Positions 13,597-18,228 are shown, counted from the stretch's first letter. The stretch: DNA of 64,000 bases from an uncultured Pseudomonadota bacterium (GCA_903838125.1 CAILXF010000024.1:1-64000), one strand, 5' to 3'. A program made the numbers and translations. Notes: generated by a model from the sequence alone, not told the origin.

Positions 13597-13995
13597 GGGA
13601 TGTTTAACCGTTAATTGATGTTAATGAATTTCATCTAGCAATGAGCCGCCCAAATTAATAGTAGCTAAATCTATTGCATGGTTGATCGTTGTATTGTGAA
13701 TATCTAACTTGTTAGAATTTATCATAGAAAATGCTCATTCGGTAAATCTATGTCTTGGTAGTTAGAATTATTATCACGAACTTGCGCTATTGGCCCAAGG
13801 CATCCAGTCAACTTTGTGAAATCAACGCCCAAAAACCTTTTAAGAGCTCTGGGGGGATATTAAACTTCCCTAAACTTAATAGATTATTTCATCGGACCTT
13901 CATTGATGCAGGTCAAGCCTCTAATCTATTAGAAGCACACAATATACAAAAGTTGTTAATAACTTATATTAGTTTGTAAAAATGGAGAGCATGAG
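13597..13995. other. 399-base intergenic region between divergent lptF and a small gene
   Basis: Apart from the FNR-type box listed separately, I see no RNA gene or repeat. The 74-residue ORF in the track (13755-13979) starts at a weak codon, has no homology I recognise and contains the FNR-type box, so I treat this stretch as non-coding promoter DNA. Confidence 0.5.
13903..13916. promoter_or_regulatory. FNR/ANR-type box upstream of small WRxKMA protein
   Basis: TTGATGCAGGTCAA matches TTGAT-N4-ATCAA at nine of ten defined positions. It lies 79 bases upstream of the small gene at 13996. A weak -10-like CAATAT begins 23 bases downstream of the box. It has the same GGTCAA right half as the boxes at 41965, 54443 and 61021. 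Confidence 0.55.
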
Positions 13996-14190
13996 ATGGT
14001 CACCCCTTTACGATACAATCCAACAACAAAATTAAATGATTTGTTTATTAATTCACTTTGGCAGCCAGTTGGTCATCCAGATACACGCGCTTATTTGAAT
14101 CCAGAAGACGCTGATGAGAAGTTGCGTATGGATGAAGAGAGGCTTCAAGATTGGCGAAGAAAGATGGCCCAAATTAGAGGTAAGCATTAA
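13996..14190 (+). CDS. Small hypothetical protein with C-terminal W-R-x-K-M-A motif (copy A)
   Basis: A 64-residue product with a good start context (GGAGAGCATGAG before ATG). I do not recognise a named family. The C-terminal third, PEDADEKLRMDEERLQDWRR then KMAQIRGKH, aligns with the C-terminus of the small protein at 16183 (VEDALALQLELEEENLNEWR then EKMAKI). The shared core is EExLxxWRxKMAxI, so the two are paralogous at least there. It is charged and likely helical at the C-terminus, with no signal peptide or membrane segment. An FNR-type box lies upstream and a hairpin terminator downstream, so it is a single-gene transcription unit. Confidence 0.7.
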   Translation: MVTPLRYNPTTKLNDLFINSLWQPVGHPDTRAYLNPEDADEKLRMDEERLQDWRRKMAQIRGKH

Positions 14191-14294
14191 CAACATCTGT
14201 TGTACTCCAAGTAATTTTATTTTGTCTTATTATTGCCACATTAAGCTAGTATATTTTTGATTAGTATAGTGATTAATTGTTTCATCTCCTTTTA

Positions 14295-14322
14295 AGGGTG
14301 CCTCATAAGCGCCCTATTTTTT
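14295..14322 (+). terminator. Intrinsic terminator after small gene A
   Basis: Stem AGGGTGC/GCGCCCT (7 pairs, one G-T) with loop CTCATAA, followed by ATTTTTT. It lies 105 bases past the small-gene stop and upstream of the phosphoesterase gene. Confidence 0.7.
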
Positions 14323-14441
14323 CATCATTTATTGCTGACTAGTGAAAGATGGAAAGAAATATAGAAATAGGGTGGTTTTAAGTTGGTTAATCATTAGATA
14401 ATCATTACTCATATTCAATCAATAAAGACTTCGTAATAAAA

Positions 14442-15995
14442 ATGCAAAAACATACTCTCTACAATCTTGTCAGAACAAGCATTTTGTCAGTTAGTGTCCT
14501 ATTTCTTTCAATGTGCAGTAGCCTAGTCGTTGCTGAAAATGTAAGCGATTCCCGCCTCAATCAAATTGAAACAATCGTTATTATTTATGCGGAAAATAGA
14601 AGTTTTGACAATCTGTATGGATTATTTCCTGGTGCAAATGGCATCTTTAAAAATGCAGATGGCTCCGACACTAACTTAGCTAACTATCACCAAGTGGACC
14701 GAGATGGATTTAGCAGATTAATCACATTTCCAGCCGTATGGAATGCTCAAGGCACGAAAGCAATCGATAAACTATCTTTTGTAGCAGATCTGCCAAACAT
14801 ACCCTTTAAAATTGACGGAGCCCCTGGCGCACTGCCAGATACGCTTGGTATGAATTATCCTACACCAGATTTAGTGCATCGATTTTTTAATAATCAAATG
14901 CAAATTAATGGCGGTAAAAATAACATGTTTGCCGCTTGGTCTGATGCAGGTGGTTTGGCGATGGGCTATTACAATGGTGCGCCCATGAAAATGTGGCAAT
15001 TGGCACAGCAATATACACTTGCTGACAACTTCTTCATGGGTGCTTTTGGGGGTTCGTTTTTAAATCATTTTTGGCTTGTTTGTGCCTGCACACCTAAATA
15101 CCCCAATGCGCCAGAAGCACTATTAAGTAAAGTGGATAAGAATGAAATAACGTTGATAGTAGATAAAAGCTCTCCTCATAGCGCTTTGTTAGGCAAGCCA
15201 ATTTACATGGCTGACAAGCCTTTAACCCCAGACTATTATGCGGTCAATACACTACAGCCACCGTATCAACCTAGTGGGATAGCACCTCACAAAAACGCCG
15301 ATAAAACGTTGGCTGACCCTGATCAAAATCCATTGCCACCACAAAATTCAATGGTAACGAAGACCATAGGTGACACCTTAAGTGCCAAAGGTGTTAATTG
15401 GGCTTGGTACGCAGGTGGCTGGCATGAAGCTACCGAAAACCGAGATGTCATTTACAACATTAAGAAAACCAACTTTCAAGCGCACCATCAGCCATTTAAT
15501 TATTTTAGTCGATTTAGCCCTACGACAGAGGAAGGCAGAAAGGAGCGGCAACTTCATCTGAAGGATTACGCCGACTTACAAAAAGATATTCAAGCAGGCA
15601 CATTACCTCCCGTCGTGTTCTATAAACCACAAGGTAATTTAAATCAGCATCCAGGATACACAGACGTCATGTCGGGAGATGCGCATATTGCTGAACTTGT
15701 TTCTAGCTTAAAAAACAGTCGTCAATGGCAGAAAATGGCAATCATTGTGACTTATGATGAAAACGGTGGGTATTGGGACCATGTCGCTCCCCCTAAAGGA
15801 GATCGCTGGGGTCCTGGTTCGAGAATTCCGACAATTATTATATCGCCATTTTCTAAAACTAACTATGTGGACCATACATACTACGATACAACTTCTATAC
15901 TAAAACTTATCACGCAGCGATTCTCTCTTGAGCCCATGCAGGGGGTGAGAGCTAAGGCTGGGGACCTTAGCAATGCTTTTGTAGAAGCAAAATAA
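14442..15995 (+). CDS. Exported AcpA-type acid phosphatase / phosphoesterase-family protein
   Basis: A 517-residue protein with a signal peptide (basic start, then the hydrophobic ILSVSVLFLSMCSSLVVA). The phosphoesterase family (PF04185) hallmark IVIIYAENRSFDNLYG lies near residue 46. Later metal-site segments include NFFMGAFGGSFLNHFWL, GDAHIAELV and IVTYDENGGYWDHVAPP, followed by GPGSRIPTIIISPFSK. The family includes phospholipases C and AcpA acid phosphatases; the shorter length and the missing C-terminal DUF756 domains favour AcpA. Export implies scavenging of phosphate from phosphoesters, but no Pho box was found upstream. The ribosome site is weak. Confidence 0.82.
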   Translation: MQKHTLYNLVRTSILSVSVLFLSMCSSLVVAENVSDSRLNQIETIVIIYAENRSFDNLYGLFPGANGIFKNADGSDTNLANYHQVDRDGFSRLITFPAVWNAQGTKAIDKLSFVADLPNIPFKIDGAPGALPDTLGMNYPTPDLVHRFFNNQMQINGGKNNMFAAWSDAGGLAMGYYNGAPMKMWQLAQQYTLADNFFMGAFGGSFLNHFWLVCACTPKYPNAPEALLSKVDKNEITLIVDKSSPHSALLGKPIYMADKPLTPDYYAVNTLQPPYQPSGIAPHKNADKTLADPDQNPLPPQNSMVTKTIGDTLSAKGVNWAWYAGGWHEATENRDVIYNIKKTNFQAHHQPFNYFSRFSPTTEEGRKERQLHLKDYADLQKDIQAGTLPPVVFYKPQGNLNQHPGYTDVMSGDAHIAELVSSLKNSRQWQKMAIIVTYDENGGYWDHVAPPKGDRWGPGSRIPTIIISPFSKTNYVDHTYYDTTSILKLITQRFSLEPMQGVRAKAGDLSNAFVEAK

Positions 15996-16182
15996 CATTG
16001 ATTTTATTCGCTTTTAAAATGGTCTACAGATTGACGAAAAAGACGCTCACAGTGAATGTTTTGATAATTCTTCTTCGCGTGAGGTCTGCCTAATGTCACA
16101 AAAAATTCACACATACTTCATGAACTACTTCTTAGAATGACGCTTTATATTATTTCCATAATAAAGCTGAGTCGTAACCATT

Positions 16183-16410
16183 ATGTCTAATAAAGTAGCA
16201 AGCGAAGAGTATAAAGATAAAGCAAAATTATTAAGCCCAGAAGAAGCTGAGCGGCTACTATCAAGAATGAGCGGTAAGCTACCCAAGCGCTTAGATAAAG
16301 ATAAGCTTAGCGTAGAGGATGCGTTAGCGCTTCAGTTAGAGCTTGAGGAAGAAAATCTCAACGAATGGCGTGAGAAGATGGCTAAAATAAAAAGTGAGTC
16401 AAAGAAATAG
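16183..16410 (+). CDS. Small hypothetical protein with C-terminal W-R-x-K-M-A motif (copy B)
   Basis: A 75-residue, highly charged product with no signal or membrane segment. Its C-terminal segment EENLNEWREKMAKIKSESKK aligns with that of the 64-residue protein at 13996 (EERLQDWRRKMAQIRGKH). Preceding segments share an acidic ED-A-rich helix. The N-terminal halves differ. I know no function for this motif. It is followed 61 bases later by the ParB-like gene on the same strand, so the two may be co-transcribed. No FNR-type box precedes this copy, unlike copy A. Confidence 0.65.
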   Translation: MSNKVASEEYKDKAKLLSPEEAERLLSRMSGKLPKRLDKDKLSVEDALALQLELEEENLNEWREKMAKIKSESKK

Positions 16411-16471
16411 CTTTGTAGTTATCGGATAGTCTCACCATCACTAGATCACAATTTTATGCGGAGAGTTAGTC

Positions 16472-16849
16472 ATGGCTAAGCAAAATACACAAGAAATTAA
16501 GTGGCTAGATCTGCCCGAAGATCATGATTATCCTGCTGCAGCGTCTTATTTAAGCCTAATTTATGAAAGCAAGGTAGTGGAAGCTTTAATAGATAAATTA
16601 CAATCTATCGCCACATCGAATTTTAAAGCCAAAGACTTGTTCCGAGCGTCTAATTTATCACTACTAGGGATCAGTAATTCCCATGTACGGAAAGATGCTA
16701 GAAAAATAAAAACAGGCTACGCTATTTCACCACTACTCTTGGTCAGAGATCAAGCCAACGGCAACGTAATCATTGCTGACGGCTATCATCGTTTATGTGC
16801 TGTATATCGCTTTGATGAAGATGCATTAATTCCATGTAAGATTGTTTAG
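16472..16849 (+). CDS. ParB-like-domain protein (function unknown)
   Basis: A 125-residue product with a strong start (GCGGAGAG seven bases before ATG). The C-terminal half holds SPLLLVRDQANGNVIIADGYHRLCAVY; the DGYHR box resembles the ParB/Srx-fold motif in which a conserved arginine contacts nucleotide. The N-terminal half (KWLDLPEDHDYPAAASYLSL) is conserved, as I recall, in similar unannotated proteobacterial proteins. It lacks the helix-turn-helix and dimerisation domains of chromosomal ParB, so a role in segregation is unlikely. It follows small gene B. Confidence 0.6.
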   Translation: MAKQNTQEIKWLDLPEDHDYPAAASYLSLIYESKVVEALIDKLQSIATSNFKAKDLFRASNLSLLGISNSHVRKDARKIKTGYAISPLLLVRDQANGNVIIADGYHRLCAVYRFDEDALIPCKIV

Positions 16850-16878: not shown

Positions 16879-18228
16879 CTAGAATTCAACATGAAAGCGA
16901 AGCGCGCCAAAATTAACTGGTCCTCGATCACTGTTATAGCCAGGGTTTAACATCCGTTGATAATCTGCCGTAACATATAAATCCTTCCAAACATTCGCAC
17001 TGTAATAGGCTTCAAATACTTGCTCTGGCCGATAGTTAAGGTGTCCATCACCTAGGAAGAAAGAAATGCCTCCTGCCTCTAGGTAACGTCTTCGTTCATC
17101 CGAAAGGGTATTACGGATATAGCCTAACCCCAACGTGTCTTTTGGCCGCTGCCAAGATTCCCCTTTGATTGATAAGCCCGTGCCAAGTGAAGCGTCCGTT
17201 TCTGTAAACGCAAGCGTTTCCGTGTGGCCATCGGCTTTCATAGCTCTTAGAAAAAACCCTACATCACTACTAATGGCTTGTTCAACATTAACGCCAACGC
17301 CATATTTAATCTTATCGCTACTACGCACTGCAAAGATAGCTTGAGCATCACTGCTTGGATTAGCGATGTGGAAGTCCAACGCATCTTGGAAGCTCGCAAG
17401 CCTAGCGCGGTTTCGCCAACCTAACAGCCTCACTTTGCCAGGCTGCCCGAATAGCGTGTGTGCATGCTCAACTTCTGCTTGGTCGCCGTAGTATTTAAAA
17501 ATTCTAAAATCCGTGGGTAACATATTGGGGTCTTTAGGACCTGTCATGCGTCCAATGCGATATACCCAGTCACCTTGATACCACTCACTCGTAAAACCAA
17601 AACCAAAGCCGCGCGCATCCGCTGCATAGTCATAGGCAAGTGGTGCCATAAATCCGGCATTCATGAATTGGACACGGGGGTCTTTAGCGTAAGCATTTCC
17701 ATCAAACACATCTAAGCTTGAGAAGTTGCCAACGGTCAGTACCCAACGATCTTTATCTACGGCACCACCCATCTGATTGAGACCAGCCTCCACCTTTTCC
17801 ACACCACCACCAAGATTCACTGTCTGACGCAGAAATAGCCTTTGTCGGTAAAGCTTAGGCTCGGTACCAGCCGTGCGTGTCAGCTCTCCATTAGTAAAAG
17901 CCCCTGTCCCATTTAGTCCTGAGAAAGGAACGCCTTGTGTTATCTCTGGGTTTAGATATAACTCTCCGCCTTGCCAAGGACGAAACCCCAAAAATCCAGT
18001 GATGGTGGCGGTATAGCTTTTTTCTTGATTGGCACTAAGGCTGTTCTGCCCGCTATACTTTTCTTGAAAAGAGGGATGGTTTTGCCAAATATAAGTGCTT
18101 TGGAATCTGACAGTTGTATCTTCATATTCAGGCTCATCTGCGAATGCGCTATAAGTAGGCGTCAATCCTATGAGCAGGAGGATACAATGCATTAGATTGA
18201 AAGTATGACGTGGCGGATTTGATTTCAT
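16879..18228 (-). CDS. OprB-type carbohydrate-selective porin
   Basis: A 449-residue outer-membrane protein with a signal peptide (LMHCILLLIGLTPTYSAFA) and amphipathic beta strands ending in a terminal phenylalanine (LRFHVEF). Family features include RFQSTYIWQ near the mature N-terminus, LYLNPEITQG and WVLTVGNFSSLDVFDGN, as in OprB. Such porins admit sugars across the outer membrane. It is transcribed towards the ParB-like gene and convergent with it, 29 bases apart. The specific substrate cannot be read from the sequence, and no sugar ABC transporter is adjacent. Confidence 0.82.
   Translation of the reverse strand: MKSNPPRHTFNLMHCILLLIGLTPTYSAFADEPEYEDTTVRFQSTYIWQNHPSFQEKYSGQNSLSANQEKSYTATITGFLGFRPWQGGELYLNPEITQGVPFSGLNGTGAFTNGELTRTAGTEPKLYRQRLFLRQTVNLGGGVEKVEAGLNQMGGAVDKDRWVLTVGNFSSLDVFDGNAYAKDPRVQFMNAGFMAPLAYDYAADARGFGFGFTSEWYQGDWVYRIGRMTGPKDPNMLPTDFRIFKYYGDQAEVEHAHTLFGQPGKVRLLGWRNRARLASFQDALDFHIANPSSDAQAIFAVRSSDKIKYGVGVNVEQAISSDVGFFLRAMKADGHTETLAFTETDASLGTGLSIKGESWQRPKDTLGLGYIRNTLSDERRRYLEAGGISFFLGDGHLNYRPEQVFEAYYSANVWKDLYVTADYQRMLNPGYNSDRGPVNFGALRFHVEF

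Follow-up and report, generated by a model that had tools for sequence, protein, structure and literature searches.

A small-protein family linked to a ParA ATPase and to polyphosphate genes: a candidate adaptor for granule positioning

Genes and features of the locus

We analysed a window of 64,000 nucleotides from an uncultured Pseudomonadota bacterium (GCA_903838125.1, CAILXF010000024.1:1-64000). The host is a draft genome with 86% completeness and probably belongs to the family Methylophilaceae. The original prediction described two small proteins (here A and B) flanking an exported phosphoesterase and followed by a ParB-like protein, and it was right on the coordinates and products of all four genes. 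With the adjacent porin gene and the PhoB-box-like sites, the features are:

13886-13903, + strand: weak PhoB-box-like site ATTTCATCGGACCTTCAT, tentative, 110 nt 5' of A (11.5 bits)
13996-14190, + strand: A (64 aa), C-terminal WR helix in common with B, N-terminal head different
14442-15995, + strand: AcpA-type phosphoesterase, an exported acid phosphatase (517 aa; PF04185, TIGR03397)
16093-16110, + strand: PhoB-box-like direct repeat ATGTCACAAAAAATTCAC, 90 nt 5' of B (9.1 bits)
16183-16410, + strand: B (75 aa), member of a ParA-linked, putatively Pho-regulated small-protein family, with basic loop LSRMSGKLPKRLDKDKLS and invariant W62-R63
16472-16849, + strand: ParB-like orphan (125 aa), a mobile gene
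16879-18228, - strand: OprB-family porin (PF04966), with its own PhoB-box-like site
18311-18294, - strand: PhoB-box-like site TTGTCACTTAAATTTCAT of the OprB porin (14.9 bits)

The window genes are real and purifying selection acts on them, strongly on B (dN/dS 0.04-0.12) and moderately on A (about 0.25-0.28, from few changes). In Pfam/NCBIfam, the phosphoesterase matched PF04185 and TIGR03397 acid_phos_Burk (E 7e-191). It is compatible with a role in phosphate acquisition, yet it is not a conserved partner of A or B, and no PhoB-box-like site was found 5' of its gene (3.6 bits).

A, the phosphoesterase, B and the ParB-like protein had been proposed to form one system, but the grouping is not conserved, and we found no conserved linkage among the four. 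The order A-AcpA-B occurs only in three near-identical genomes (the window genome, G007, and G028), and B lies beside the ParB-like gene only in these and in G045. We thus rejected A-AcpA-B-ParB-like as a conserved operon, since it is limited to 3-4 close genomes. In G028, a small DUF2934 gene lies between A and AcpA (L034:1148-1399, - strand), and a similar-looking small ORF is found near B in locus L018.

The 125 aa ParB-like protein, a mobile orphan, is strongly conserved across Gammaproteobacteria, Betaproteobacteria, and Rhodococcus. Its homologues (48-63% identity) are on plasmids of Klebsiella, Caballeronia, Xanthomonas, Pseudomonas, and Rhodococcus (plasmid matches L150-L152), with unrelated neighbour genes in the three regions examined. 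The label "ParB-like" was not confirmed: we found neither ParBc nor any other Pfam or NCBIfam domain, and no significant PDB relative, and the AF2 model (pLDDT 42) was too poor for a fold search. The resemblance to the ParB/sulfiredoxin-type ADGYHR motif was seen by eye only. We also rejected this protein as the partner of the ParA that accompanies B (see below), because a single genome (G045) has it next to parA-B and it is otherwise mobile on plasmids.

The B family and its ParA partner

The proposal of an undescribed small-protein system stood in part: B belongs to an unnamed family, but its conserved partner is a ParA ATPase and not the phosphoesterase or the ParB-like protein. The family is found in 94 of 187 host-family genomes, covering 19 of 24 genera. 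It has no Pfam or NCBIfam entry, and a search on plasmids gave no match. None of 22 B proteins matches the CHAD domain. A SHOCT-like_DUF2089-C match (Pfam E 3e-4, below cut-off) appeared in only one of the 22 and was taken as chance.

The AF2 model of B (pLDDT 90) is all-helical, with helices at residues 8-15, 19-27, 33-38, and 44-73, and no PDB fold matched it (best E 5.7). L17, R28, K32, A49, Q51, E53, L59, W62, and R63 are invariant in 22 B proteins. A wider set of 65 has a basic residue ahead of helix 1 in 62 members –the N-terminus is typically MKIK– and the tryptophan in at least 59. Lys/Ala/Pro tails (median 60% K+A+P, net charge +11) are present in 27 long B proteins; the window B is short and, as many others, tail-less.

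A and B do share a C-terminal motif, DEERLQDWRRKMAQI in A and EEENLNEWREKMAKI in B, with different N-terminal heads. Direct BLASTP aligned no more than 10 residues (E 0.002). With A left out, a profile built from 22 B proteins matched residues 43-63 of A with 19.3 bits (E 4.5e-5 for 1000 sequences). Conversely, a profile of five A proteins run over 52 genomes hit 35 places: the five A, 29 B-family C-termini, and one unrelated. Because the profiles match both ways, the likeness of the WR helix in A and B, judged by sequence comparison, exceeds chance despite its short length. The idea of one helix carrying different heads is borne out in A, in B, and in two 63 aa variants (L226:3986-4177 and L228:3992-4183). 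Of B, these variants retain the C-terminal half alone, and they bridge A and B. Relatives of A were found in G000:C29 (44%) and G030:C90 (41%). A would be a divergent relative of B that retained the WR helix alone.

In the window, B is not beside a ParA gene. The same genome carries a second B copy (65% identity), which immediately follows the gene of a 210 aa ParA ATPase. An all-against-all tally over 69 representative B loci identified ParA as the commonest neighbour (27 loci, median distance 72 bp), followed by EAL/GGDEF (10), PPX (7), PPK1 (6), GlgP (6), CHAD (4), and porin-O/P (4). An Rrf2-like regulator and a glycosyltransferase, both named by eye, occur in seven B loci each, mainly in one clade. 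In L081, L100, L108, L116-L118, and L129, the ORFs of B and parA touch or overlap. In these neighbourhood counts, phylogeny was removed only partly, through clustering at 80% identity. For about half of the B clusters, ParA and phosphate genes are both absent up to a distance of 4 kb, and outside Methylophilaceae (Gallionella, Sideroxydans) B lacks a ParA neighbour.

The ParA linked to B is present in 103 of the 187 host-family genomes (21 genera), and in 76 of the 119 of high quality. Both proteins occur in 88 of the 187 genomes, B only in 6, ParA only in 15, and neither in 78 (Fisher 1.6e-29). The association was also seen inside the genus (27 both, 3 B only, 4 ParA only, 18 neither; p 2e-7). 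Several of the six genomes with B and no B-linked ParA are incomplete. The ParA is chromosomal and single-copy in most genomes. It matches PF13614 and PF01656 above cut-off and NF041546 with 134.8 bits, below the equivalog cut-off of 180. Its deviant Walker A, KGGSGKTTLATNLA in L002 and most homologues, fits KGGxxKT, and its closest solved relatives are the partition ATPases ParF (4dzz) and ParA (5u1g). B is a putative partner protein that travels with one ParA, and this linkage is well supported in silico.

Polyphosphate genes and putative phosphate regulation

Of the 60 distinct ParA proteins, 27 are encoded beside B and 14 beside CHAD, with no case of both. Away from B, parA often belongs to a sixA-parA-CHAD operon or neighbours ppk1. 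CHAD domains are polyP-binding modules (PMC6537752). B, CHAD, PPK1, PPX, or SixA lies within 2.5 kb of 47 of the 60; the 13 without such a neighbour include some missed B ORF calls and several distant ParA from other families. A random-region control gave 0 polyphosphate genes in 448 positions, so that the background rate is only bounded. Pfam/NCBIfam confirmed PPK1, PPX, CHAD, PhoU, and porin O/P, the SixA match being below the equivalog cut-off.

Several gene orders recur: sixA-parA-CHAD in many genera, ppk1-sixA-parA-B-ppx in Methylophilus, and B-parA-ppk1 in L100 and L129, where the B and parA ORFs abut. B adjoins a CHAD gene in L061, L098, L125, and L235, and ppk1-parA(-CHAD) is found in another family (L339, L342, L343). 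The host genome carries ppk1 and a CHAD gene. At one further locus (L317, G451:C1:2116100-2124700), pstC-pstA-pstB, named from sequence, lie directly 5' of parA-CHAD, an arrangement that appears to be a direct link of ParA to phosphate uptake genes.

For phosphate regulation, we scored upstream regions with a PhoB-box matrix written by hand from the E. coli consensus (two CTGTCAT-like 7-mers 11 bp apart). A PhoB-box-like site of at least 8 bits precedes 59% of 66 B genes; the figure is 4.7% for 235 control intergenic regions (p 5e-16) and 3.3% for dinucleotide shuffles (p 4e-21). As positive controls, four porin-O/P genes scored 14.5-18.1 bits, and the top-scoring one among 707 unrestricted control regions lies ahead of a response-regulator gene, which we read by eye as phoB. 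In L067, L082, L084, and L114, B lies after a gene for a phosphate-selective porin O/P; in L084 and L114, both genes have PhoB-box-like sites.

The site of the window B is moderate, with 3% of control intergenic regions scoring as high. A third 11-bp-spaced repeat, CTTCAT, follows it, and the site is conserved ahead of B genes across five species and three gene contexts, including those with CHAD or ParA upstream. The site of A is matched by 1.7% of control intergenic regions, and it is tentative because it is conserved only in near-identical relatives. The OprB porin site is strong (0.9% as high) and suggests that this corner of the window is phosphate-regulated. Putative PhoB control of the B genes is well supported in silico.

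A candidate granule-positioning system and its alternatives

Our best explanation, to which we give slightly better than even confidence, is that a ParA system would position polyphosphate granules, with B as its McdB-like, Pho-regulated adaptor. The wider reading is plausible but falls just short of an even chance: ParA together with Pho-regulated B and/or CHAD would perform ATP-driven granule partition, and the WR helix would be a cargo module reused on A. From the in silico evidence –the family, its co-occurrence with ParA, the ppk1/ppx/CHAD neighbourhood, the PhoB-box-like sites, the tails, and the fold prediction– we infer ParA binding, granule binding, positioning, and a role for A as follows. 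Under phosphate starvation, PhoB would cause B to be made. ATP-bound ParA would coat the nucleoid, by analogy with McdA/McdB, and CHAD proteins and/or B would mark the granule surface. B may grip the granule through its basic face, through the Lys/Ala/Pro tail where present, or through the WR helix, while its short basic N-terminus would stimulate ATP hydrolysis by ParA and its release. Granules would then track the ParA gradient, being kept apart and shared between daughter cells. The window B is a paralogue separated from parA, its second genomic copy keeping the ParA neighbour. It lies within a small gene cluster whose features relate to phosphate, the acid phosphatase and the PhoB-box-like sites. 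A may have retained the WR helix and not the ParA-facing head.

Alternatively, B and ParA could control polyphosphate or phosphate metabolism and position nothing, B acting as a Pho-regulon regulator or a modulator of PPK1/PPX and ParA as a nucleotide-dependent switch. The linkage to ppk1, ppx, phoU, and CHAD and the PhoB-box-like sites fit such control equally well. However, the nearest relatives of this ParA subfamily are partition ATPases, and the tail of B resembles nucleoid-binding granule tethers; we consider metabolic control unlikely. It is less probable again that B positions a glycogen or PHB inclusion, or several storage polymers, with polyphosphate genes nearby because storage genes cluster. 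At 5-6 B loci, GlgP (glycogen) is encoded no more than 4 kb away, and two B members matched PhaP_Bmeg, a model of a PHA inclusion protein, below threshold (E 0.016), but CHAD, PPK1, PPX, and the PhoB-box-like sites indicate storage of phosphate rather than carbon. If B were an AlgP/PhaF-like tether, nucleoid-associated or histone-like, and its ParA link incidental, this would agree with the Lys/Ala/Pro tails and with the many B loci lacking an adjacent ParA. Nevertheless, genome-wide co-occurrence with ParA is strong even when the genes are not adjacent, and many B proteins, among them that of the window, have no tail, which leaves this option slightly more improbable still. Finally, the originally predicted complex, in which A and B would be heads joined to the phosphoesterase and the ParB-like protein, is very improbable: three genomes (window, G007, G028) have the genes adjacent, but the arrangement is absent from other genomes, the ParB-like protein is encoded by a mobile orphan gene, and the phosphoesterase is exported whereas no evident export signal is seen in A or B.

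Few bacterial inclusions are as common as polyphosphate granules. The only spacing factor for them that a 2025 review names is AlgP, and the review states the use of energy for their localisation as open (PMC13052382). In the open-licence literature searched, we found no description of an ATP-driven system positioning polyphosphate granules. The parA-B / parA-CHAD module, with PhoB control probable, would offer named genes for granule positioning in culturable methylotrophs, and the orphan chromosomal ParA of the host family gains a cargo hypothesis.

A close analogy to the proposed granule positioning by ParA and B is McdA/McdB (PMC10241942, PMC12204374, PMC11321042), where a ParA-family ATPase is also encoded with a small divergent partner. 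In McdB, basic N-terminal residues contact McdA and an invariant C-terminal tryptophan contacts the cargo (PMC12204374, PMC11321042); B likewise has a basic N-terminus and an invariant tryptophan near the C-terminus. The cargo genes differ: here they are ppk1/ppx/CHAD and not carboxysome genes, and no carboxysome or microcompartment family was among the recurrent neighbours of the 69 B loci. The proteins also differ, since McdB ends in R(V/I)WPD whereas W62 of B lies in LxEWR inside helix 44-73, and B has a confident four-helix fold and an unrelated sequence.

AlgP spaces polyphosphate granules in Pseudomonas aeruginosa and has a KPAA tail (PMC9239181), thus resembling the long B proteins in polyphosphate context and Lys/Ala/Pro tail. 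However, it is described as a lone tether (PMC9239181), whereas B co-occurs with a ParA ATPase, and its N-terminal domain looks different from B, by appearance only. The long C-terminal Lys/Ala/Pro tail of AlgP/PhaF/PhaM-type tethers is found in the 27 long B relatives and is absent from short B proteins such as the window B. Plasmid partition by ParF/ParG is similar in that ParF is among the closest solved relatives of the ATPase and a partner of about 75 aa is encoded next door. By contrast, ParG is a ribbon-helix-helix DNA binder, a fold with which the all-helical, strand-free prediction for B does not agree; and ParF/ParG is of a plasmid-borne type, whereas the ParA described here is chromosomal and single-copy in most genomes.

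A folD-ppk-parA-CHAD cluster of Acidithiobacillus was reported as conserved in 2024 (PMC10892726), the same association of ppk1, parA, and CHAD as here. In the part of that source considered here, ParA is given only as a plasmid partition protein, with no B and no positioning hypothesis (PMC10892726).

Finally, we observed Lys/Pro/Ala-rich proteins of 117-196 aa near ppk1-ppx-parA (L068:2639-3229, L080:1744-2235, and L119:1342-1776, all on the - strand) and, in one case, near phoU and CHAD (L098:858-1211, + strand). The L068 protein had no Pfam or NCBIfam match. These proteins are possibly a further granule or nucleoid tether.
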